Below are positions 2-13,684 of a stretch of 64,000 nt of DNA, one piece after another. The stretch covers positions 1-64,000 of the forward strand of contig JALWFG010000011.1 in assembly GCA_027038965.1 (NCBI GenBank). Direction: 5' to 3'. The position numbers and the translations under genes were made by a program. The notes under the pieces are model-generated. The model saw only the letters and a list, made by a program, of their open reading frames with translations. It did no database searches and was not told the DNA's origin. Source of the DNA: Candidatus Desulfofervidaceae bacterium. GTDB taxonomy: Bacteria; Desulfobacterota; Desulfofervidia; Desulfofervidales; Desulfofervidaceae. Within the stretch, counting starts at the first letter, position 1. Every line of letters begins with the position of its first letter.

Positions 2-720
2 GTCGCAATCCCCTCAAATCGGGTCAATGTTTCCAACGTTTAACTGGGATGCCCTCTGGGATGGGATAGGAAACAGAGGTCGCAATCCCCTCAAATCGGG
101 TCAATGTTTCCAACAGTGCAGGTTCTAAGGGTTTGTGGGACTTAGTTGCGTCGCAATCCCCTCAAATCGGGTCAATGTTTCCAACTAGAGAAAATGATGA
201 GGGACCTGTATGCCAAAGCACGTCAGGTCGCAATCCCCTCAAATCGGGTCAATGTTTCCAACAAGGAATGGTATGAAGGAAATTTTAAACACAAATATCC
301 GTCGCAATCCCCTCAAATCGGGTCAATGTTTCCAACGGGAAACAATCTTCGGGAGGTTTTAAGTGTAGCATTAACAGAGTCGCAATCCCCTCAAATCGGG
401 TCAATGTTTCCAACGTGGACAACCAATCTACTTTGCTATAAAAGCAGTGATATTGAGTCGCAATCCCCTCAAATCGGGTCAATGTTTCCAACTCAAGCTT
501 AGAATAGCAAGATATAATGGTAGTGCCTATGAAGAGTCGCAATCCCCTCAAATCGGGTCAATGTTTCCAACTCAGGGTCTATAACTTAGGAATAGAAGAA
601 GATGATGAATTAGTCGCAATCCCCTCAAATCGGGTCAATGTTTCCAACTCCATACAGAAGGAGAATTGCTTAATTGGGAATATTGTCGCAATCCCCTCAA
701 ATCGGGTCAATGTTTCCAAC
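2..720 (-). CRISPR. CRISPR array, 10 repeats and 9 spacers, type III
   Basis: Ten identical 36-nt repeats start at 2, 79, 150, 227, 301, 379, 457, 536, 613 and 685. The nine spacers are 35-43 nt long (41, 35, 41, 38, 42, 42, 43, 41, 36). On the plus strand the repeat begins GTCGCAATCCCC and ends GTTTCCAAC. On the minus strand it ends GGGGATTGCGAC, which matches, from memory, the 3' end of Thermus thermophilus type III repeats whose crRNAs carry the 8-nt handle AUUGCGAC. I therefore place transcription leftwards, with the leader at the 720 side and the newest spacer at 649-684. The leftmost repeat is not degenerate and starts at base 2, so the array very likely continues beyond the window. Open reading frames through this stretch are repeat artefacts. 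Confidence 0.97.
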
Positions 721-2308: not shown

Positions 2309-2698
2309 TTACCTCCCGTATTGTCTAAAGCCTTTATGCTTAAAGACCCTCTGAACGATTGTCTCCTGTCCTCGCAAAGTTTCTTTGACTATCCTTTCTG
2401 TGGTGGCATAGATGGGAGTAAGCTTCAGGGAAAGGGCATAGCCTACCATCAGGTAGGTGGCTCCATAATCGCCCTGAATTAAAGCCAAATCGCCTGGCCT
2501 TGCATTTTGTTTAAGCCAATGTTTAATCGGTTCTAAGTAGCCGTTTAATTCAGATAAATCTGGCGGAATGTTTGACCACAGAAATTGGAGCCTAGCTGGC
2601 AAGGGGATGATATTTTCTACCTGCCAGTTTTCCTTTAAATCCCCTGCCTGCTCAGGGGTCAGTTTATGTGAGAAGAGCAAAAAGCAACTTTTACCCAT
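2309..2698 (-). CDS. csx20: CRISPR-associated protein Csx20 (probable ring nuclease)
   Basis: The product is a small 129-aa protein between csm5 and the CARF nuclease gene. I recognise the Csx20 pattern: FLLFSHKLTPEQ near the N-terminus, then ENIIPLPARLQFLWSNIPPD, RPGDLALIQGDYGAT, and the C-terminal HKGFRQYGR. Csx20 is a type III ancillary family grouped with Csx15 and Csx16 as cyclic-oligoadenylate binders or ring nucleases that switch the signal off; no activity can be read from the sequence. I set the start at the ATG at 2698, which overlaps the csm5 stop by 8 nt. A longer frame from 2776 would need an 86-nt overlap and adds unrelated residues. It probably tunes the downstream Card1/Can2 nuclease. 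Confidence 0.8.
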   Translation of the reverse strand: MGKSCFLLFSHKLTPEQAGDLKENWQVENIIPLPARLQFLWSNIPPDLSELNGYLEPIKHWLKQNARPGDLALIQGDYGATYLMVGYALSLKLTPIYATTERIVKETLRGQETIVQRVFKHKGFRQYGR

Positions 2699-3800
2699 TT
2701 GTTTCCAATAAGCACCAGGCCATGGGCATGTTGTCCAGGGCCCAGATGGTGGTTTGAAAATCTTTGCCTCCAACAATTTTTCTAAAGCCTGCTATGGTTA
2801 CCGCTGCCGCCCCACTGTGTTTGCCCAGTTTGATAAAACAGGCCTGTTTTAGTTTGGGATTGTTTAGTTTTTCAGGCAAAGGTGCCCACATCTGGTAATC
2901 CTTGGTGGTGGCGGCCGAGATGTGAAACCGCTCTTTTTCTTCGGCCCAGATGTTTTGGTAGTGATAGCGGCAGGCCGTAATGAGGGTCTTTTGGTCCAGA
3001 CTTGTCTTTAAACCCGTTATTTGAGCATATTGCCTTTCAAAGAGGGCCTTGTGAATAGTGATGGTGCCGGTGAATGCGGCCCCTGGGGCAATGTATTCCA
3101 TTTTTACCGGAATGCCTTGGGCGTGTTTTTGGGTCTGAAATGACTTGAGGTTATAGGAGATGTCTATTTTGATATTGCCTTTTGTCATTTTTAGATCCGA
3201 GACCTTTAGGGCCCGAAAGGGGTCAGAACAGGTGTCATTGGCAGAGGCCTTTTTTAAGATACATTGCTCTAAAATGCGGGCCTTGTTTTGGCGGGGCTTG
3301 TCTGAATGGTCTGCCAGGCATTGCTTAACCGCCCCTTTTTGGGACTGACACAGATAGTTCAAAATGGCCGTCCTTAAACTACCTTTCAAAGAAGAACCAG
3401 GAATAAAAACCTGATGGTTTAAAGGATTTCTAGGCAGTTTGGCGATGGCCAGAGAGGCAATGACCGCAGTTTCAATCTGGGCGTAATCGCTTAAATTTTG
3501 GGAATAATTTTCTGCCACTGCTTGGGATACCTTGACTTTGTAAACCGAAAATTCGGGTCTAAAGTGGTCATAGATGAATTGCCTGATTTTAAATATGCCC
3601 TCTGGGCTTGAGATATTGCACAAAAACAGAAAGTGTTGATATTTACCTTCTTTAATAAGGTAATCCATAAAGGCATCTCTGTTGAGCACATGGAGGTAGC
3701 CGTCTTTTATGACATATTCGGTGGGGATGTAGTCTTCGCCTGTGCCCACATGGACCGGGCTCAAGACCGTTAAGGTGATAGGTATCCTTTGTTCAAACAT
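2691..3800 (-). CDS. csm5: Type III-A effector subunit Csm5 (RAMP)
   Basis: This 369-aa Cas7-like RAMP protein caps the 3' end of the crRNA in the Csm complex. Support comes from the N-terminal strand followed by LSPVHVGTGEDYIP, the glycine-rich loop FIPGSSLKGSLRTAIL near residue 150, and its fixed place after csm4. The start ATG at 3800 overlaps the csm4 stop by 8 nt, indicating translational coupling. Length is usual for the family. Nothing suggests damage. Confidence 0.93.
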   Translation of the reverse strand: MFEQRIPITLTVLSPVHVGTGEDYIPTEYVIKDGYLHVLNRDAFMDYLIKEGKYQHFLFLCNISSPEGIFKIRQFIYDHFRPEFSVYKVKVSQAVAENYSQNLSDYAQIETAVIASLAIAKLPRNPLNHQVFIPGSSLKGSLRTAILNYLCQSQKGAVKQCLADHSDKPRQNKARILEQCILKKASANDTCSDPFRALKVSDLKMTKGNIKIDISYNLKSFQTQKHAQGIPVKMEYIAPGAAFTGTITIHKALFERQYAQITGLKTSLDQKTLITACRYHYQNIWAEEKERFHISAATTKDYQMWAPLPEKLNNPKLKQACFIKLGKHSGAAAVTIAGFRKIVGGKDFQTTIWALDNMPMAWCLLETNG

Positions 3801-4689
3801 CCTTTTCTCCCTCTAGATGAATAAAAAGGGGTAGCATAAGGCCGCTGTGGAGGTGATTGCCCCTGTTGGGGGAAAGGCTAAGCAGTTGCCCATAGACCTC
3901 TTTTATTTCATTGACAAAGAAGACAGAGCCGGGAATGGTAAGGATAATCGGGTTTTTAAAGGGATTGGCAGCAATGGCCAGATAGCCGCCGTGTTTGGGA
4001 AATTTGGTAATGGTTTTGAAATAGCCCCTTTTTATAGAGCTGTCCGGAAGGCCGTGGGAGAGGGACATGAAACTTTTGCAATCTGGCCTTGGCCTTAAAA
4101 TCTCAGGAGATGTTTCGCACTCTTTGATTTCAAATCTTCCCTTGCCAGTAGAGGCATCTTTGCCATAACCTGCCTTGCCCATGTTTGTTAAGACTTCGTA
4201 TATTTCCTCTTTTTTTATGAGGTGGCTCTGATACTTGAGATAGACATCAAAACAAAGGCCTTCTTCAAAGAAAGTTTCTTCAGTGGAATAGAGATGGGAA
4301 GTTTGGTTGGAAAGGCGGTTAATGGTGTTTTTGAAAATCCGCTTTTGTTTCAAGGGGAGATTGAGGAAGTCCTCCTCAGTCAAATTTTGAAAGAGTCTGG
4401 TTTCAGTTAAGGGATGGGTGTTTAACAGGGTGTCTTTTCTGACAAAAGACAATTTTTTATGCCGTTTATCGGCCTGTCCTTGAGGTTTGAGTAGTGGTTT
4501 GGGCAGAAAACCGCTTGGAAATCCATCTGAAAAGGCAATGAAGGGCTCAGGATTTTGCAGACATTTCTCAAGGCGGCGTTCCCCATAGAGCTCCACAAAC
4601 TGCCAGCAGAAGTTTCCAAACAGAGTATCGCTCATTAGGGGTGAAGCAAAGGAGGACCTGGGCTTGAGGGTAATCTTTAAAGACTCCAT
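3793..4689 (-). CDS. csm4: Type III-A effector subunit Csm4 (Cas5-like RAMP)
   Basis: This 298-aa subunit holds the 5' crRNA handle and bridges Cas10 to the Csm3 backbone. Features seen: an N-terminal RAMP strand (SLKITLKPRSSFASPLMSDT), the conserved segment DTLFGNFCWQFVE, GLCFDVYLKY in the middle, and glycine-rich GYGKDASTGKGRFEI, a hallmark of Csm4. I choose ATG at 4689, one base after the csm3 stop and preceded by GAGG. A TTG 12 bases upstream would be the alternative. Confidence 0.93.
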   Translation of the reverse strand: MESLKITLKPRSSFASPLMSDTLFGNFCWQFVELYGERRLEKCLQNPEPFIAFSDGFPSGFLPKPLLKPQGQADKRHKKLSFVRKDTLLNTHPLTETRLFQNLTEEDFLNLPLKQKRIFKNTINRLSNQTSHLYSTEETFFEEGLCFDVYLKYQSHLIKKEEIYEVLTNMGKAGYGKDASTGKGRFEIKECETSPEILRPRPDCKSFMSLSHGLPDSSIKRGYFKTITKFPKHGGYLAIAANPFKNPIILTIPGSVFFVNEIKEVYGQLLSLSPNRGNHLHSGLMLPLFIHLEGEKDV

Positions 4690-4690
4690 C

Positions 4691-5395
4691 TTAATCCTCA
4701 AACAGGGTCAGGTTGTTGAATTGCTCTGCCATTTGAGGGTCGTCAAATGAAAATTGGATTCTGCCATATCCCCTTGAGCCACAGCCACCCAGGGCATCCA
4801 TTTCTAAAAGCTTCAGGGCCTGCAGCAGATATTTAAAATTCTCACGGTCCACTTGGCCGTTATCACCGTTAATGTCCATGATTTTATAATGAATTACAAA
4901 TTCAAACTCTGCTCCAGCCGGCACCCTTTCCATGTGTCTGGGACCACCGCCGCCTGAGGTGCCTTTGATACGGTCAATGGTTACCTCTATCTTTTCCTCA
5001 GTCAGGGCGTTGTATCTCCTGAGTTTATCTTTGCTGGCCTCGCTTAAAAAGCAGTCCCGAAACAGGGCTCGGGAAGGCCCTTCATTATAGCCCTCGGCCT
5101 CGGCCCCGGAGATGCCAAAGATGCGACAGATGGCCTTACCCTTGTCATCATCAGGCCTATCCCAGGGTTTTCCCTCTGGGTCTATTTTACCCAGATACCA
5201 CTCCAGCAACGACCGGACCTTGCCCTTTAAGGACGAACCAGGAATGTAGGGCTCCTTTGTGAATGGATGTCTGATAACAGGATTGTCAATGCCCCCAATC
5301 CTTATTTCATCACTACCTGCTCCAATGTGCAGACCCGTAAGGAGTTTAATCGTGCCCTTTATTTCTTTAATGTCAAGCAGGCGATAGCTCTCCAT
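4691..5395 (-). CDS. csm3: Type III-A backbone subunit and RNase Csm3 (Cas7)
   Basis: This 234-aa backbone RAMP forms the filament along the crRNA and cuts target RNA every 6 nt. The N-terminus reads LLTGLHIGAGSDE, then GGIDNPVIRHP, where Asp37 corresponds by position to the catalytic aspartate known in Streptococcus Csm3 (Asp33). The loop YIPGSSLKGKVRSLLEW and the C-terminal LGGCGSRGYGRIQF are typical. The start is the ATG at 5395 with GGAGGAA upstream; a longer frame from 5446 would run into csm2. Target RNA cleavage is therefore expected to be intact. Confidence 0.95.
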   Translation of the reverse strand: MESYRLLDIKEIKGTIKLLTGLHIGAGSDEIRIGGIDNPVIRHPFTKEPYIPGSSLKGKVRSLLEWYLGKIDPEGKPWDRPDDDKGKAICRIFGISGAEAEGYNEGPSRALFRDCFLSEASKDKLRRYNALTEEKIEVTIDRIKGTSGGGGPRHMERVPAGAEFEFVIHYKIMDINGDNGQVDRENFKYLLQALKLLEMDALGGCGSRGYGRIQFSFDDPQMAEQFNNLTLFED

Positions 5396-5408
5396 TAATA
5401 TTCCTCCT

Positions 5409-5858
5409 TTATCTGTTTTGATATCTTGACTTGTTGGCAGTGGCAAAGGCTACAATGGCCTCAAATAAATCACAAAAGGCGTCAAAGTCCCCTTTTTGGT
5501 TGACCTTATCAAGTTGTTTTTCTATAAAAATTTTAAAGTTTTTAGTAGCCCGCTTGCGGGCCTCGGCGTAAGTGGCCATTGCCTTCATCATTTTAATATA
5601 AGGCAACTGCCGTTTGAATTCTTCTTCAGGATTGTCTCTGGTTTCAATGCGTTGCTTGATGACAAGAAGATAATTATAAAATTTTCGCAGTTGGTGAATG
5701 CTCATTTTCTTCTCTGTTGCAAACCAATCCGATAGCCTGTGGGCATCTTCAGAAAGTAATTGTGGCCGTAGATACTTCTTTTCTTGATCAGCAAAGAATT
5801 CTATTGGTAAACGAACATCTTCTCCCTGTCTGGAGTAATGTTGTCTATTGGGGGTCAT
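5409..5858 (-). CDS. csm2: Type III-A small subunit Csm2 (Cas11)
   Basis: This 149-aa, mostly helical, charged protein follows cas10 with a 4-nt ATGA overlap. It forms the inner belly filament of the Csm complex. The pattern seen in the family is present: WFATEKKMSIHQLRKFYNYL, then LPYIKMMKAMATYAEARK, and a C-terminal FCDLFEAIVAFATANKS. There are no catalytic residues, as expected for this subunit. Confidence 0.93.
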   Translation of the reverse strand: MTPNRQHYSRQGEDVRLPIEFFADQEKKYLRPQLLSEDAHRLSDWFATEKKMSIHQLRKFYNYLLVIKQRIETRDNPEEEFKRQLPYIKMMKAMATYAEARKRATKNFKIFIEKQLDKVNQKGDFDAFCDLFEAIVAFATANKSRYQNR

Positions 5859-8305
5859 TTCCTTTTCCTCCTTTTGTAAATTGCTATTGAAAGGGGTATG
5901 GTTAACTTGGATTTATAGGCCTCTATCCAGTTATTTCCAATATCCAAAAGCCTTTCATAATAAGGTTTTTTACCAAAGTTTCTGGCCGTTATATAGGCAA
6001 AAATGGCCCGCCATTTAGCAAATTGCGGGGTTTCAGACATCTTTTCGGCCCAATCGGATAAGGTGAGCAGGCGATAAAAATAGGCCGTTGGCAATGGTTC
6101 AATCTGTTCAATTTGGTCTATTTCGGCTTCAAACAAAGAGAGATTCTTAAATTCCTTCCAATCTAATGTTTGTTGAAAGATGGTAATGGCGTTTTTGTCC
6201 CGGCGTTGTTTTGAGGCCTCAAGTGCCCTTTCTGCCTCTTCGGCCATTTGCCTTACTGGCACCATCGGTTTGGCCAGGATAAGCCCGGCTGAAATCGTGA
6301 TGTCTTCATTATGGCACACATATCGTTTAAAGTGTGTTCCGATTTCTTCCTGGGCAAATTGGTAAATCTGGGTATAGGGGCCGATGAGAAAAAGGTCGTC
6401 TCCGCCGGTGAAAACTGTATAAATTTCAGGATATCTTTTGGTGGCTATGTAAGGGATATATAAAGAGAAAAAGGCATCCAGCATGCGACTGAGGTAGGCA
6501 TAGCGCGAGGCGGTCAGAAGCTGTCCTTGGTCTCTTTTTAGGCCCTCTTTAAAGATAAGTCCTAGATTATCTACATCGGCCTTGAATATTCCTAAAAATG
6601 GGCTGCCTATTCGGTTACCTTTTCTGTCCAAGGTTAGGGCATCGCAGGCCAAATGATAAAAGGTCTTGATACTGCCTGCCTTGTAGTCCTGGGGGAGTTT
6701 TTCCTTTTTAAGGTCTTTATACCTTTTTTCCTGCCACTCATTGGCTTTGAACTTGGGCACTTGTTTGGCGATATGTTTTAAAGGATATCCCTTAAAACCC
6801 GTTTCTGGACTGAGCTGATAGACCAGGCCGGTTTGGGCAGCAGCATTATCTTTCCCAAATTCAAACCCATAATTGCCTATAATCCGATACTTCAAATTCT
6901 CACCCAGGGTGATGAATTCTTCTTTAACTAGCCTTTCACCTATTTCCTTAAAGGCCAAGCAATCCTCACAAATGGGCATTTCATCATCTATTTGTTTGGT
7001 CTTTGGATGTTTGCCACAAATGGCACAGATATCCTCAGAAGACCTTATTCTATCAAGATAGTCGTTAAAGACAAACAATTGGGGATCAAGATCAAGGGGG
7101 CTTAGCTTTTCCTCTTCAAGTTTTAAGGCCAGATTGGTCATAAAAGAGGCGTATCTGTCAGACTTGAATTCCTCAGTGCTAGCTCTCAACCAGGCCAGAC
7201 AAAAGTTGACCTCTCCATAGAATCTTTTGTGAAAGGTCCTTCTGATTTCCTGCTTTAATTCTTGGAGATGTTCATCAATGTTATCCAGATTAGGGGCTAA
7301 GACAAGAAATTTACCAGCGGCTGTGCTCAGTATAGAGGCGGGGTTTAGACCGAACTTCTGGATAACAAGGTAAGCGGCTGTCTCTGTGGCCAAGGACACA
7401 AAAAAGGACTTGGCCCTTAAAATCTTGGCTGCATACTTGTTGGCACTACCGCCCTGATCAAAGATGAAGGACTGAATTCCTGAGAAATCACCGACAATAA
7501 AAACAAATGGCTTGTCCTGGGTATGTTCCAAATAATTGAGACTGCATCTTTGAAGTTGGCCTTTGGCTTCATAATAGCCAAACAAGGCCGTCGCAATGGC
7601 CGCAGTGGTGGTCAAATGGTCGTACAACGGAATGTCAGGCACAGTCTTGATGGTGGCTGAGGGAATACACCAGGTGTAAACCTCTAGCAATGACCTGACG
7701 GCATTAAAAAAGGTATTAAAATTAGTGTATTTTATCCTTTTGAAGTCTCTCTCAAAATTATGCCATAGCCTTTGGTATTCCTCTTGACACTTCTCACCTT
7801 TTAAGTTTTTAAAAAGAGATTTCTCTTGAGGAAAGATCTTTTCAGGACTAAATGGAACCAGGGGATATAAAAATTCTTCTTTATAACAATCATGCCTTTT
7901 AAGACTTATTTCCTCAAAAATAGGTTTTAACCTAACGCAACGAAACCGCTTGACATCTTCTTCTTGCCCTAATTTGTCATAATGTTTTCTATCTAATCCG
8001 GCGCTCAAGCGATCAGCTACAGCAATGATGGATTCATAAGGGTTGGATGGATTGTGATGTCTGGCGGCCAGATTAATCAAGGCAGTTTCATCGTTAGTGG
8101 GACCTTCATTAAAAACACCCTCATTTTCTTCAAAAAAGCGGTAGGTGTAAAGGGCATGGGGATAACTATACTCCTTGGGGATATAATCATGCCAATTGCC
8201 CGGACGCTTAATTTCTAACCCGGTTCTTTGATAAAATTTGCCGATGTCATGTAACAACGCCGCCAAAGAAATTTTGTCAATCAACCTCAACCTGAAATCC
8301 TCCAC
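5855..8305 (-). CDS. csm1: Cas10/Csm1, HD nuclease and cyclic oligoadenylate synthase
   Basis: This is the large 816-aa subunit of the type III-A effector. The N-terminal HD domain has LLHDIGKFYQR, with His19-Asp20 intact, so DNase activity is possible. The first palm-like part contains GDFSGIQSFIF. A zinc ribbon with CAIC and CEDC lies near residues 423-446. The cyclase palm has FTGGDDLFLIG, with GGDD at residues 634-637, so cyclic oligoadenylate synthesis is expected. The start is GTG at 8305, only about 11 nt after the predicted transcription start and without a Shine-Dalgarno. It begins a tightly overlapping seven-gene operon. Confidence 0.97.
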   Translation of the reverse strand: MEDFRLRLIDKISLAALLHDIGKFYQRTGLEIKRPGNWHDYIPKEYSYPHALYTYRFFEENEGVFNEGPTNDETALINLAARHHNPSNPYESIIAVADRLSAGLDRKHYDKLGQEEDVKRFRCVRLKPIFEEISLKRHDCYKEEFLYPLVPFSPEKIFPQEKSLFKNLKGEKCQEEYQRLWHNFERDFKRIKYTNFNTFFNAVRSLLEVYTWCIPSATIKTVPDIPLYDHLTTTAAIATALFGYYEAKGQLQRCSLNYLEHTQDKPFVFIVGDFSGIQSFIFDQGGSANKYAAKILRAKSFFVSLATETAAYLVIQKFGLNPASILSTAAGKFLVLAPNLDNIDEHLQELKQEIRRTFHKRFYGEVNFCLAWLRASTEEFKSDRYASFMTNLALKLEEEKLSPLDLDPQLFVFNDYLDRIRSSEDICAICGKHPKTKQIDDEMPICEDCLAFKEIGERLVKEEFITLGENLKYRIIGNYGFEFGKDNAAAQTGLVYQLSPETGFKGYPLKHIAKQVPKFKANEWQEKRYKDLKKEKLPQDYKAGSIKTFYHLACDALTLDRKGNRIGSPFLGIFKADVDNLGLIFKEGLKRDQGQLLTASRYAYLSRMLDAFFSLYIPYIATKRYPEIYTVFTGGDDLFLIGPYTQIYQFAQEEIGTHFKRYVCHNEDITISAGLILAKPMVPVRQMAEEAERALEASKQRRDKNAITIFQQTLDWKEFKNLSLFEAEIDQIEQIEPLPTAYFYRLLTLSDWAEKMSETPQFAKWRAIFAYITARNFGKKPYYERLLDIGNNWIEAYKSKLTIPLSIAIYKRRKRK

Positions 8306-8392: not shown

Positions 8393-9118
8393 TCATTTTA
8401 AGGGTCTATTTTGCTCTGCCAAATGTGACACCTGCCCAACATACATTAAGGCTGGTTTAGGGAAAGAGTGTTTTTTAACTTTTTGCACTGGGAACTGATA
8501 AGAAAAGTAAAGTTTTATACCCTTTTGTTGGACATAGTTTTGAACTTGGGGAGAGGCCTGATAGGTAACCAAAATGGGAAGGAGTTCCTGATTAAGTGTG
8601 ACTTTTATGATGTTGAGGTTTTTCAAGAAGCCATCTACATCTCGCTTTTTAAGCTGGGTTTTGCATTTGCCTACCACAAAAAGCTGTTTACCATTTTGAG
8701 CGGCCTTACCAATAATGTTCACTTCAAGGTATCTGCCAGGACCAATCTCTACAGAGTCCCTTTTTAAGGGGGTGAGTAGTTTTAGGCCATATTCTTTCTC
8801 AAGCAGAGGCGGGCCCGATCTTCAAAAGGATGTAGCCTGCGGCATGGGCCAGTTCCCCAAGCTGCTCTCGAGTCTTGCGATGCTCACCAATGAGCTTTGT
8901 GAGTTCGGCTTCAGTTTTTTTCTGGGCCTCGGCCAGCTCTTTCACGACCCGACTGAGGTCTTTAACGATGTCCTTTAGCTCATTGAATTCCCTCTTGGTA
9001 ACCGTGGCTTCTCGTTGACGCTCAATTTCCTCCAGGACAGCGATGAGGACTTCCCTTGTGGAGGGCTCAATTTTCTGGAGAAGTTTTATAACATTATACT
9101 GTAAGGCATAAATCCTTT
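8393..9118 (-). pseudogene. Frameshifted DUF3782-like PD-(D/E)XK protein
   Basis: Conceptual translation gives one recognisable protein split over three frames. The first part (about 9118 to 8835) is a coiled coil with STREVLIAVLEEIERQREA, KREFNELKDIV and LGELAHAAGYIL. The second, very short, reads EDRAR in the next frame. The third (about 8815 to 8393) reads LLEKEYGLKLLTPLKRDSV, then NIIGKAAQNGKQLFVVGKCK and RDVDGFLKNL. Together they match the family with a coiled coil, a G-Y-x-L-E-D-x-A motif and a nuclease-like core. At least two small indels in a stretch of about 20 bp break it. An intact 109-aa frame from 8722 is only the tail. It lies between the effector and adaptation modules. Confidence 0.75.
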
Positions 9119-9178
9119 ATATCAAAAGCAGGCGGAGATGGCGAAAACATCCGCCCACAAAGTAACTTAAATTTTAGT

Positions 9179-9206
9179 TTGACTTTTTGGCAAATTTTTA
9201 TTATCT
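9179..9206 (+). promoter_or_regulatory. Promoter of the CAPP-cas1-cas2-cas2 operon
   Basis: TTGACT at 9179-9184 and TTATCT at 9201-9206 have 16-bp spacing. The predicted start near 9213 is only about 3 nt before the ATG at 9216, and no Shine-Dalgarno is present, so the mRNA may be leaderless. A hairpin-forming sequence (GGCGG at 9131-9135, CCGCC at 9151-9155) lies just upstream. Confidence 0.55.
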
Positions 9207-9215
9207 CCTTTAAAT

Positions 9216-10946
9216 ATGAAAGAGGCCTCTGTTGAATGTTTAAAGAGGGTAGAAAAGGCCCTTCTTGAAGGCAAAGAAGGACGAGCTCAGGAGCTGGCCT
9301 TGAGGTATTTTTCTACCGACCATACTGATTCAGAACTTTTCTATAAGTGGGCTCAAGTCTTTGAGCTTTTGGGTATGGCCAAAAAGGCCATTTCTGCTTA
9401 TGGTTTAGCCCTTAAATTTTCGCCTGACAATCCCCGTTATCTAAAACCACTAGCGATTTTATTCTATGAAACAGGGAAACTTAAGGAGGCCTTTGGGGCC
9501 TTTAGGCGTTTAAAAGGGCTTAGACCTGGTGATGGCCAAATAGATGAGTATTGGCACCGAATTTTGAAGGAGCTTGGGTTTGAAGGCAGCATAGAGGAGA
9601 TCTCAGAGCAACCCTTTCGGGGGCAACACTTAAGATACTTTCCACCCAGCGTGGGAAAAAATGAAGCCCGTCTGTTCCTCCATCTTTTTTCAGGTCGCCA
9701 TAGAGGCCTGTTTGTCCAACAAAGGGATAAAAGGACTGGGCTTTCCCGCTTGGTTTATCAGGACATTTGTCTTGATGAGTCTTTGATGAAAGACCATGTT
9801 TTAGGTGAGAAGACAATTTTCTTTTTGCCCTTAAGGGAAGATAAGAAAGTTAAAACGGCAATCCTGGCCATTTTTATACCCAAACGTGACTTGTTTTATT
9901 ATGCCCGTCAGCCATCTTTTTTGGAGGTTAAGGCAGAGTCTTTGAAGGAGTTTACCCTTAAATCTTTTAATAAAATTTGTGGGTGGGGGTTACCTGCATA
10001 TCTGGAGAGGGTTAATCGGTTTTTTTATCGAATCTGGTGGTTCCTAGAAGAGTTTATACACTTTTTAAAGGTAAGACGGTTTTTGAAAGAGGTCATTACA
10101 AGACTTTCTCTGCCCCACTTTGGAGGAAGGATTGAGGCATATTTGCCCACTAAACCTATTGGGGTAGGTTGGCAAGAGCGGCCTATGCTTTTACCACTGG
10201 GTATTGAAAGGCAAACGGGGCAAAGAAGCCTTTTCATTGATGGTCATGGCGAGGCTTATTCAGAACAGCTCCGGTTTTTAAAAAGGGCTAAAGAGTTGCC
10301 AGTAGCTGAGTTGAAGAATTTTTTAAGGCATTTTCAGCAGTTGAAATTAGAACAAACAGAGTCGTTGAGCAAGGGACAAACTCCCCTGCTTGAGAGGCTG
10401 AAACAGGGCTGTAGTATTATCAAGGCCATTTTGGAAAAGACAGAGGAAGGCGGTCCCCTTTCCCGTAATGAAAAGGTAGTTTTGTTTTATACCATCGGTA
10501 TTTTGGATAAGGAGCTTTTGCATCAGGTGCTTTATCCCTTACCTGATTATAATTATCATCGGGTAAATCGCATTCTTAAAGGATTAAAACCCAATCCCAT
10601 AAGTTGTATTAAGATAAGAGAGCTTTTACCAGAACTGGCTCACAGTTTGACTTGCAATTGTGTATTTGACCTGAGCGATGGACGGTATCCATCACCGGTG
10701 ATGCACATAAATCCTGTTTTGGTACCTACAGAAATAGAGCGGTTTACGCTTAAGAGGAGTTCGCTCCAACAGCTGGCCCAGCGTTTTATCTGGCTCTGGC
10801 AGGAGAGGCAGAGGATTGAAGGGCAATTGAGGATATTGGAAAATGAATTAAAAGGCGGATTAAAAAAGAAGGGATGGGCTGAAATAAATGTTAGTGGAAG
10901 GAGACTTTGTTTGAAGGAAGGGCGTTTGGTGGTAGCAGGAACCTAA
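9216..10946 (+). CDS. TPR and primase-polymerase-like CRISPR protein (CAPP-like), catalytic motifs degenerate
   Basis: This 576-aa protein heads the adaptation operon. Residues 15-125 are TPR-like helices (AISAYGLALKFSPDN, PLAILFYETGKLKEAFGAF). Residues 148-360 align by eye with the archaeo-eukaryotic primase domain of CRISPR-associated primase-polymerases: LFSGRHRG, KDHVLGEKTIFFLPLRED, GLPAYLERVNR, PMLLPLGI, FIDGHGEAYSEQLRFL. Where a catalytic DxD is expected there is ILAIFIPKRD (about 217-225); the expected histidine strand reads YRIWWFL (271-277); the expected aspartate turn reads PTKP (311-314). So all three motifs seem lost. Residues 390-510 form a four-cysteine domain (Cys399, 464, 480, 482; PISCIKI, CNCVF, YPSPVMH) like the PriL-type cluster of this family. 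A coiled coil ends the protein. Possible role: structural partner in spacer acquisition. Confidence 0.72.
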   Translation: MKEASVECLKRVEKALLEGKEGRAQELALRYFSTDHTDSELFYKWAQVFELLGMAKKAISAYGLALKFSPDNPRYLKPLAILFYETGKLKEAFGAFRRLKGLRPGDGQIDEYWHRILKELGFEGSIEEISEQPFRGQHLRYFPPSVGKNEARLFLHLFSGRHRGLFVQQRDKRTGLSRLVYQDICLDESLMKDHVLGEKTIFFLPLREDKKVKTAILAIFIPKRDLFYYARQPSFLEVKAESLKEFTLKSFNKICGWGLPAYLERVNRFFYRIWWFLEEFIHFLKVRRFLKEVITRLSLPHFGGRIEAYLPTKPIGVGWQERPMLLPLGIERQTGQRSLFIDGHGEAYSEQLRFLKRAKELPVAELKNFLRHFQQLKLEQTESLSKGQTPLLERLKQGCSIIKAILEKTEEGGPLSRNEKVVLFYTIGILDKELLHQVLYPLPDYNYHRVNRILKGLKPNPISCIKIRELLPELAHSLTCNCVFDLSDGRYPSPVMHINPVLVPTEIERFTLKRSSLQQLAQRFIWLWQERQRIEGQLRILENELKGGLKKKGWAEINVSGRRLCLKEGRLVVAGT

Positions 10947-10983: not shown

Positions 10984-11967
10984 ATGGCCATTTTTTATGC
11001 TGTAGAACAGGGACTTTTTTTACAAAAAGAGGGGCAAAGACTTCTGGCCAAAAAGGACGGCCGGCTTTTGAGGTCTATTCATTTTCATGAGATTGAGCAG
11101 GTGATTTTGGTTGGACGCATTTCTTTATCTCCTGCAGTTGTAACTGCCCTGCTTAAAAGGCAAATTGATGTGGTGTTTTTGACCAAATCAGGCCGTTTTC
11201 TAGGAAGGCTTAGCCCAATGATGGGCAAGAATATAGAGTTGCGGCTTAGACAGTTTGAGCGTTTTAAGGATAAAGATTTTAAAAGAAGAGTGGCTGAGGC
11301 AATTGTCCAAGGCAAAATTGAAAACCAAAGATTGCTTTTGAGGCGTATTAATCGCAAGGCACTTGGGCTTGAAGATGCCATTTTAAGACTTAAGGCCTTG
11401 GCAAGGCAGGCTGAAGGTGTGGAGATTGAAACCTTAAGGGGGATTGAAGGGACAGCGGCCAGAATCTACTTTGAGGCCCTAGCAAAAGGATTCAATGAGA
11501 CTTGGGAATTTAGAAACCGGGAAAGGAGACCGCCCAAGGACCCTATCAATGCCCTTTTAAGCTTAGGCTACACTCTACTTTTTAGCAATGTGCTTTGTGC
11601 TATCAATTTGATAGGACTTGATCCCTATTTGGGATGTCTTCATAGCGTAGATTATGGAAGGCCTTCTTTGGCACTTGATTTGATGGAAGAATGGCGGCCA
11701 GTTATTGTGGATGCCTTAGTTTTAAGCATGATAAATCGCAAGGTGATAAATAGGGGCGATTTTGAATCTAAACAAGAAGGGATTTATTTAACTCCAGAGG
11801 GATGGCGCAAGTTTATTGCCCAATTTGAAAGGAAGATGAACGAAGTGTTAACCCGTCCTGAACGCGAAGAGAGGCTTTCTTACCGAGCTTACATAGAATC
11901 CCAGGTGAGGTCTTTTGTCAGGGACATAAAGGGGAAAGAAAAATATAAGCCAGCGGTGTTTAGATGA
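10984..11967 (+). CDS. cas1: CRISPR integrase Cas1
   Basis: The 327-aa product is the catalytic subunit of the spacer integration complex. The metal-binding residues are all present: Glu155 in RGIEGTAARIYF, His220 in GCLHSVDYG, and Glu235 in LDLMEEWRP. The segment DPINALLSLGYTLL is a standard Cas1 signature. It follows the CAPP-like gene by 37 bp and overlaps the first cas2 by ATGA. It is not fused to a reverse transcriptase or Cas4, and neither is encoded nearby. Confidence 0.98.
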   Translation: MAIFYAVEQGLFLQKEGQRLLAKKDGRLLRSIHFHEIEQVILVGRISLSPAVVTALLKRQIDVVFLTKSGRFLGRLSPMMGKNIELRLRQFERFKDKDFKRRVAEAIVQGKIENQRLLLRRINRKALGLEDAILRLKALARQAEGVEIETLRGIEGTAARIYFEALAKGFNETWEFRNRERRPPKDPINALLSLGYTLLFSNVLCAINLIGLDPYLGCLHSVDYGRPSLALDLMEEWRPVIVDALVLSMINRKVINRGDFESKQEGIYLTPEGWRKFIAQFERKMNEVLTRPEREERLSYRAYIESQVRSFVRDIKGKEKYKPAVFR

Positions 11968-12245
11968 AAAAGTGTTATCTAATTTCTTACGATATTTCCG
12001 ATGAAAAAAGGCTTCGTAAGATGGCAAAGTTGTTGGAAGAATATGGTTATCGGGTGCAAAAAAGCGTCTTTGTGTGTTTTTTAACCGAGTTTATGTATGA
12101 AACATTAAGACAAAAGATAAAATTGCTTATCGACCTTCATCAAGATCGAGTAAGAATTTATCAGCTATGCCGCAGTTGTCAAAAGACGGCCGAGGTAGAG
12201 GGTATTACTGAGGTGCCCCAAGAGGAGGACTTTGTTATCGTATGA
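11964..12245 (+). CDS. cas2: Cas2, first of two tandem copies
   Basis: This 93-aa ferredoxin-like protein bridges Cas1 dimers in the integrase. The first strand is YLISYDISDEKRLRK with the conserved Asp10, followed by LLEEYGYRVQKSVFVCFL. The C-terminus has a CRSC pair. The start overlaps the cas1 stop (ATGA), and the stop overlaps the start of the second cas2 in the same way, so all three should be translationally coupled. It differs clearly from its neighbour, so this is not a recent duplication. Confidence 0.96.
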   Translation: MKKCYLISYDISDEKRLRKMAKLLEEYGYRVQKSVFVCFLTEFMYETLRQKIKLLIDLHQDRVRIYQLCRSCQKTAEVEGITEVPQEEDFVIV

Positions 12246-12532
12246 AAAATAAGGTTTTTGTTCTGGCCTGCTATGATATTGCTGATGAAAGACGGTTGCA
12301 AAAGGTAGCCAAGATAATGGAAGATTATGGCGTTAGGGTGCTTTATAGTGTCTTTGAGTGTCTTCTTTCTAGAGGGCTCTTTGCCCAAATGAAATCTAAA
12401 GTAAAGGAAGTTCTTGACCCCCATGAAGATAGTGTTATTTATTATCTGCTTTGTAACCATTGCCGTCGGAAGATTGAGCACCTCGGACGGACACCCTTTT
12501 ATCTGGAAGAAGTAGATAGTATTGTAGTGTAA
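12242..12532 (+). CDS. cas2: Cas2, second tandem copy
   Basis: A second, diverged Cas2 of 96 aa. The conserved strand is VLACYDIADERRLQK with Asp12, followed by IMEDYGVRVLYSVFECLL. A CNHC pair near the C-terminus parallels the CRSC of the first copy. Identity between the two copies is low outside these motifs, which suggests separate roles or a heterodimer. Its last 34 bases overlap the end of the convergent cas6. Confidence 0.95.
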   Translation: MKNKVFVLACYDIADERRLQKVAKIMEDYGVRVLYSVFECLLSRGLFAQMKSKVKEVLDPHEDSVIYYLLCNHCRRKIEHLGRTPFYLEEVDSIVV

Positions 12533-13461
12533 TATCTGCCTAGCCCAAAGGCGGTATTTTTGCCAATGTGAATGTATTCGCCAAGGTGTAGTATAGGGAA
12601 AATATCAGAAACATCCCCTGAAATTTCCATTTCACCCATGGCCCCCCCGATTTGCAAATGAGCATTCTGGCGCTTAGAAAAGCGGGTAAAATCCTGCCAC
12701 TTGAAATTGGTTTTTACCTGAATCTTGCTTAGCATGGGCTCAAGGTTAAGTTCTTTGACCAAAAAGACTTTTCCCTGACCATAAAGTTGAGTTAAGGTCT
12801 TAAAACGGCGGATTATGGCAATAAGGATGTCTTTAAGAGAAATTTTGTCGGTTAACCTCCCTTTAATTTTGAATCGCAGGGGGGTGATGGTTTTGAGCAA
12901 AATGGCATGGGCAATCTCGTTTGTCTGCAAGATATCTGTGCTGTTTAAACAGGTGCTTGGAGAAAGGAGCCTTTGTGTTTTTTGGCTAAAAATAATGCGT
13001 TTGCGTTTAAAGGAAACATATTTTTTGATTTCTTTTATTTCAAATTTACCCCTGCCTTTGCCCATGCCCAGCTTGCCCATTTGCATTAAGGCATATATGA
13101 TGTAGGGCAGATATTCGTTGGCCTGACCAAAGAGGGTAAAGCCAAATTGATAGATGCTGCCCTGGCGCATCTTTTTGCCACCAAGCGAAAGGGGATAGAG
13201 CATCATTGGATGAGGGGGATTTTTGATTTCGGCAATATCTGTTTGGGTTTCAAACAGGAATTGATAGACACATCCCTTTTGAAGGAGACAGCTTTCACAT
13301 GAACGATTTTTATTAAGGCATACGACCCTTTTTAAGGCCACACCAAAGGCCCCTCGCAACATAGAGCCCGGAAAATGAGGAATCACAAAAGGGGTCAAAG
13401 CCTTGATGGTGACCTCATACCGATGAATGGCCAAATTGGGATGAAGATATTTAGTATCCAT
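12499..13461 (-). CDS. cas6: CRISPR pre-crRNA endoribonuclease Cas6
   Basis: This 320-aa RAMP endonuclease cuts the array transcript within repeats. Seen here: an N-terminal RAMP strand (HRYEVTIKALTPFVIP), then GSMLRGAFGVALKRVVC, a cysteine set CESCLLQKGC usual in the COG5551 group, GMGKGRGKFEI in the middle, and the C-terminal glycine-rich loop HIGKNTAFGLGRY. I choose ATG at 13461; a GTG at 13485 would add 8 residues. It is the only Cas6 in the window and must serve the csm complex 4 kb away. It is convergent with cas2 with overlapping ends. Confidence 0.92.
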   Translation of the reverse strand: MDTKYLHPNLAIHRYEVTIKALTPFVIPHFPGSMLRGAFGVALKRVVCLNKNRSCESCLLQKGCVYQFLFETQTDIAEIKNPPHPMMLYPLSLGGKKMRQGSIYQFGFTLFGQANEYLPYIIYALMQMGKLGMGKGRGKFEIKEIKKYVSFKRKRIIFSQKTQRLLSPSTCLNSTDILQTNEIAHAILLKTITPLRFKIKGRLTDKISLKDILIAIIRRFKTLTQLYGQGKVFLVKELNLEPMLSKIQVKTNFKWQDFTRFSKRQNAHLQIGGAMGEMEISGDVSDIFPILHLGEYIHIGKNTAFGLGRYYTTILSTSSR

Positions 13462-13684
13462 AGTCGCTGGAGAATATCCTATCACACTTCATAAAGTTTT
13501 TCCATCCTCATAATTACAATTGCGTTTATAGCATTTATCGCGTTAGAAGCCCTTTAGCTCCTAAGTGCCTAAGTTTCTACTCTATTTTTTTCCACTTAAT
13601 TATTTACCCATCCATTTTGCCCCTTGCCTTAAGGTCATTTTTCTGTCAAAATCCCTCCAAATTTGGTAAAATTCGGAAGGGCAA

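Follow-up and report, generated by a model that had tools for sequence, protein, structure and literature searches.

The first gene of the CRISPR adaptation operon in the window (the whole 64,000-nucleotide stretch of Candidatus Desulfofervidaceae DNA analyzed here) encodes a protein that, judged from its sequence, is a CRISPR-associated primase-polymerase (CAPP) by descent but is without primase-polymerase function. It belongs to a clade of such proteins, here called dead CAPPs, whose loci carry a second, distinct Cas2. The dead CAPP is probably not a polymerase but a conserved non-catalytic subunit of adaptation. CAPPs have been proposed to make or fill DNA at spacer capture, and the dead clade is a natural experiment on that proposal: with a dead CAPP beside arrays and an intact Cas1, any structural role of CAPP can be told apart from its catalytic one. 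The branch is large and long-lived, and its retention by selection beside an intact integrase, always with a second Cas2, suggests that an enzyme became a structural part of a machine that records infections.

The dead CAPP gene adjoins cas1 and cas2, and the three genes that follow it in the operon are joined by two ATGA overlaps. The locus contains the following features.

2 to 720, plus strand: CRISPR array, 10 copies of a 36-nt repeat, spacers 35–43 nt, one edge at the contig start
1040 to 2305, minus strand: Card1-like CARF nuclease
2691 to 8305, minus strand: type III-A effector operon, cas10(csm1)-csm2-csm3-csm4-csm5
9216 to 10946, plus strand: dead CAPP type A1 (pseudo-primase), 576 aa, from the ORF call, NCBIfam, Pfam and a structural model
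residues about 1–130: TPR part of the dead CAPP
residues about 146–365: primase (AEP) domain of the dead CAPP
residues about 389–576: C-terminal domain (CTD) of the dead CAPP, with Cys 399, 464, 480 and 482
10984 to 11967, plus strand: cas1, Glu-His-Glu active site intact
11964 to 12245, plus strand: cas2a, ATGA overlap with cas1
12242 to 12532, plus strand: cas2b, ATGA overlap with cas2a, a paralogue seen only with dead CAPPs
12499 to 13485, minus strand: cas6, convergent with the adaptation operon

The reading frame at 9216–10946 (plus strand) is intact and encodes a full-length CAPP homologue. The protein matches NCBIfam model NF040561 (CRISPR-associated primase-polymerase type A1) with 309.8 bits over residues 19–545, against a cut-off of 200 bits, and the same model matched 14/14 dead-clade members scanned. 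Pfam places AEP-TOTE at residues 185–368 and TPR at the N terminus, and phmmer against MsCAPP (7nqd/7nqf) gave an E of 1.7e-12. An AlphaFold model, built with 14 dead-clade members, has a mean pLDDT of 85 (about 92 in the primase domain). Its top Foldseek match among solved structures is the Prim-Pol domain of MsCAPP (TMt 0.85, rmsd 3.2 Å), which places a Prim-Pol fold in the window protein. Profile and structure comparisons both support the likeness to primases noted in the initial annotation, as well as its statement that the gene is not broken, since the 576-aa frame is intact and the fold is kept. The full CAPP layout described there holds for the TPR part, the primase fold and the four cysteines; the PriL-like character of the CTD is at most putative. 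The order TPR, primase and C-terminal domain is present, as seen from Pfam, the model and the cysteines common with active CAPPs; all four cysteines are invariant across the dead clade. Pfam and PDB sequence searches with the CTD returned no matches, PriL included, and by fold a viral primase large subunit ranks 9th (TMt 0.34). At the C terminus, residues about 517–576 (window 10764–10943) form a long helix and then a beta hairpin. This segment matches PF22709, the Mu Gam/Gp157-like domain of TOTE systems, below threshold (E 0.04) and is possibly an end-binding element.

Two of the three catalytic motifs, comprising both aspartates and the histidine, are destroyed in the window CAPP. The motif positions are listed below.

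9867 to 9875, plus strand: motif I DxD position, codons 218–220 (A-I-F), aligned with D177/D179 of MsCAPP
10029 to 10031, plus strand: motif II His position, codon 272 (Arg), aligned with H226 of MsCAPP
10134 to 10136, plus strand: motif III acid position, codon 307 (Glu), kept, aligned with E260 of MsCAPP

All three motifs had been read as replaced. This was correct for the DxD, where A218 and F220 stand in place of D177 and D179 (phmmer and alignments), and for the histidine strand, where R272 stands in place of H226 (alignment). The third motif had been misplaced. PTKP (residues 311–314), said to replace a late aspartate, aligns with the K264/Q265 stretch, whereas the acid itself, E260 within VEIFPKQ of MsCAPP (placed by counting from D177), aligns with E307 within IEAYLPTKP and is kept. 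E260 coordinates the initiating nucleotide together with the A-site metal (PMC10345425). A shifted register of motif I was rejected; profile, alignments and model agree, and the strand at residues 211–220 contains no DxD. In MpCAPP, replacing both aspartates (D177A/D179A) abolishes polymerase and primase activity (PMC8211822), so we can safely infer from the sequence that the window CAPP lacks both.

Across the dead clade, DxD is lost in 30/30 members, and the motif II position is Arg in 29/30 and Tyr in the remaining one (L087). The motif III position is non-acidic in 9/30, with Glu kept in most of the clade, where it may support residual metal or nucleotide binding. FPKQ, which follows the motif III acid and is invariant or nearly so in active CAPPs, is gone from the window CAPP, and dead CAPPs also lack K277 and H283, which do not vary across 28 active sequences. 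A different set of residues (R272, H282, T312, G316, G318, W319 and E321) is invariant or nearly so in the dead clade around the old pocket. These residues look like a new binding surface and could also serve a new activity.

Relatives were located by genome searches, at the outset in the same family and order and then across the phylum, and the nearest named ones are Candidatus Desulfofervidaceae. All close relatives are without DxD and nearly all have Arg at motif II, whereas distant ones have DxD, His and EVFPKQ. In an unrooted tree of 57 proteins, built with the catalytic columns removed, a branch with 100/100 support parts 29 dead proteins from 28 active ones, MsCAPP among the latter; homologues with the same replacements therefore form one clade. 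The catalytic motifs are common to the whole Prim-Pol superfamily, so their absence is the derived state, and the sequences are best explained by one loss of DNA synthesis at the base of a Desulfobacterota clade. The most divergent dead CAPPs (L087 in G327 and L065 in G157) are about 460 aa long and miss most of the TPR part; L087, the member with Tyr at motif II, nonetheless has two cas2 genes.

In a sample of 395 Desulfobacterota genomes, an NF040561 match at E of at most 1e-40 was found in 54, of which 20 carry a dead and 34 an active CAPP. Each of these genomes has one NF040561 protein, so that dead and active forms never occur together in this sample. Dead CAPPs occur in at least 13 families (13 family codes). 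In six families (f9, f21, f22, f35, f52 and f91) some genomes carry the dead and others the active form, a pattern consistent with whole modules moving horizontally. Phyla beyond Desulfobacterota were covered by a peptide-pattern scan only. A single-protein scan of genome contigs gave no confirmed relatives, whereas an alignment scan did find relatives; plasmid and phage records held no match to the dead CAPP, and viral contigs gave none that was confirmed. For more than a third of the carriers in the phylum sample (20/54 genomes), the automatic NF040561 name 'primase-polymerase' misleads. Two dead members of family f66, L057 (G363) and L058 (G203), score 576 and 446 bits against NF040561, above many active members, and the seed of this equivalog model therefore probably includes dead sequences.

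The dead CAPP is tightly linked to a second Cas2. Where contig ends allow cas2 genes to be counted, two distinct ones are present in 25/25 dead-CAPP loci and in 0/19 active-CAPP loci, although these are loci of one clade and hence not statistically independent; further active loci also have one cas2. The cas1-cas2-cas2 neighborhood of the initial annotation was confirmed, and the specificity of the second Cas2 to the dead lineage goes beyond it. Cas2a and Cas2b each form a clade of their own that draws on all dead loci (SH-aLRT 89 and 99, respectively), so the pair are not recent copies. The YD catalytic region is kept in both. A Cas2b profile run over the 395 genomes scored at least 135 bits in 17, all with a dead CAPP. 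The next scores fall in a gap down to 117 bits, which holds two genomes, both of family f30: one has a relic without cas1 (G308) and the other a decayed dead-CAPP locus (G382). In family f66, cas2b lies upstream of the CAPP gene and is still present, so the link between the two outlives rearrangement. Dead CAPP and Cas2b arose on one branch, so their linkage counts as a single evolutionary event, after which the two were long retained together.

The modules that carry a dead CAPP look functional from their sequences. The Glu, His and Glu of Cas1 are kept in every dead locus that spans them. Adjacent arrays have up to 89 repeats, with spacers mostly of 33–43 nt, like those of active modules. 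Where dN/dS was estimable for pairs of dead CAPPs, it was 0.12–0.19 for the primase domain and 0.12–0.22 for the whole protein, with several pairs near saturation; the least diverged pair (L040/L047) gave 0.19 and 0.22. By these values, purifying selection on the dead clade continues. The earlier claim that a dead primase is retained with cas1-cas2-cas2 is therefore upheld by a single origin, wide spread, purifying selection, intact Cas1 and arrays.

The distribution of constraint differs between the two groups. In active CAPPs the primase domain is the best-kept part, with a mean pairwise identity of 0.59 in the nearest group and 0.49 in the rest. In dead CAPPs its mean identity is 0.40, as compared to 0.52 for the CTD and 0.53 for Cas1, and the TPR part and CTD are as well conserved as their counterparts in active CAPPs. 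On these comparisons the dead CAPP is in use, but less through its primase domain. A structural or nucleic-acid-holding role had been proposed. The structural or adaptor half is the better supported, because conservation moved from the primase domain to the CTD. Nucleic-acid holding by the dead primase domain is possible, and the near-invariant Arg at the motif II position would fit it. However, dead primase domains are less basic on average than active ones, which counts against a pure DNA-holding role: the charge is +13 in the window protein, but the dead-clade mean is +5.0 as compared to +8.3 for active CAPPs. The more basic domain expected of a nucleic-acid-holding protein is thus absent at the level of the clade.

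The simplest reading is that docking was kept and synthesis dropped, with the pseudo-primase persisting in the CRISPR spacer-integration machinery as a subunit without catalytic function. MpCAPP binds Cas1 through residues 1–360 and itself through its CTD and TPR (PMC8211822). The dead CAPP would likewise dock on Cas1 through its TPR and primase parts and would self-associate through its CTD. After remodelling, the primase domain (R272, H282, T312 and G316-x-G318-W319-x-E321) may hold partner proteins or prespacer ends. Gap filling would probably pass to host polymerases; in E. coli, DNA polymerase I is thought to fill integration gaps (PMC9048733). With two distinct Cas2 proteins, the bridge could be a heterodimer and the complex hence asymmetric. 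In the most speculative step, Cas2a and Cas2b would pair to form an asymmetric integrase. We tentatively suggest a distinct class of adaptation module: as Cas2 duplicated, a polymerase would have become a non-catalytic subunit, and the resulting integrase would consist of Cas1, a Cas2a-Cas2b heterodimer and the pseudo-primase. Such an integrase may set the orientation of spacers or grip one prespacer end. The strict link to the second Cas2 points to such asymmetry, and makes spacer orientation by the symmetric Cas1-Cas2 complex directly testable.

Other accounts of the dead clade were weighed against the same data. The primase domain might have been remodelled for other catalysis, or its metal site rebuilt from H282, R272, E307, E321 and D342. 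The clade-specific residues that are invariant or nearly so, together with the retention of E307 in most members, are in keeping with this, but the motif I positions are not reliably acidic, the E307 position is itself non-acidic in 9/30, and the primase domain is now less conserved than the CTD, unlike in an active enzyme, so that a new activity is unlikely. It is also improbable that the old nucleotide pocket now works as a sensor, controlling spacer capture through binding of a nucleotide or of a type III second messenger. The modules adjoin type III effectors with CARF proteins, and the change from His to Arg puts a phosphate-binding residue in the pocket; yet no similarity to a sensor domain was seen, and K277 and H283, the candidates for nucleotide contact that are invariant in active CAPPs, are lost.

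It is very unlikely that the dead CAPP serves as a regulatory subunit, dimerizing with an active polymerase whose gene lies elsewhere in the way that PriL pairs with PriS. Such an arrangement would suit the self-association of CAPPs and the continued requirement of gap filling for a polymerase, but 0/395 genomes have two NF040561 proteins. In the window's own genome (21 contigs, 2.19 Mb), no second CAPP, AEP-TOTE or Cas1 was found, and a search for a replacement polymerase near dead modules gave none that recurs. An active partner CAPP in the same genome was looked for in this genome and in the 395-genome sample and was not found. Ordinary decay, with the gene a pseudogene on its way out, is hardly credible: frameshifts or decay are seen at a few loci (G001, G382 and G389), but reading frames are intact in most of the 30 loci across at least 13 families, dN/dS is well below 1 and residues are invariant across the clade. 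Decay is refuted for the clade and applies to single loci only.

With MpCAPP and MsCAPP of Marinitoga (CAPP_A TPR type, NF040561, PMC8211822), the dead clade has in common the TPR-AEP-CTD architecture, the predicted fold, the position beside cas1-cas2 and the type III context. It differs from them in lacking DxD and the motif II His throughout, in having T-[KR]-P-x-G-x-G-W-x-E in place of FPKQ and the GNLIK stretch, and in the second Cas2 at its loci. The Cas1-Cas2 integrase (four Cas1, two Cas2) likewise has Cas1 with an intact active site, Cas2 genes and a growing array, but dead modules have two orthologous Cas2 groups rather than one, which would allow a heterodimer. Inactivated Cas10 of subtypes III-G, III-H and III-I (PMC12669027) is also a retained CRISPR polymerase-type domain without catalysis; Cas10 is an effector subunit, whereas the dead CAPP is probably a subunit of the adaptation module. 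The literature searched on two Cas2 proteins, CAPP and CRISPR classification describes neither the dead clade nor the Cas2 pair; the supplement of PMC8211822 lay outside the search and may list such proteins unremarked. CRISPR effectors are known to include inactivated polymerase domains (Cas10); as far as we found, none has been described in adaptation.

Several individual loci show other arrangements. At L083 (G292), positions 8607–10721 encode 705 aa in which a dead CAPP without its CTD end runs in frame into the second half of Cas1, with both cas2 genes downstream; the fusion reflects either a deletion or an error in assembly. The dead-CAPP modules at L112 (G382), L155 (G308), L036 (G001) and L121 (G389) are frameshifted or decayed, and the frameshifts may be real or come from assembly; G308 retains nothing but a Cas2b relic and has no cas1. 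The active CAPP at L096 (G294, 8853–10475) has no cas1 or cas2 detected within about 7 kb on either side. In the window, a small protein of about 150 aa without a Pfam match is encoded at 2309–2776 (minus strand), between csm5 and the Card1-like gene, and four other dead-CAPP loci (L077, L080, L087 and L121) encode relatives of it next to csm5.
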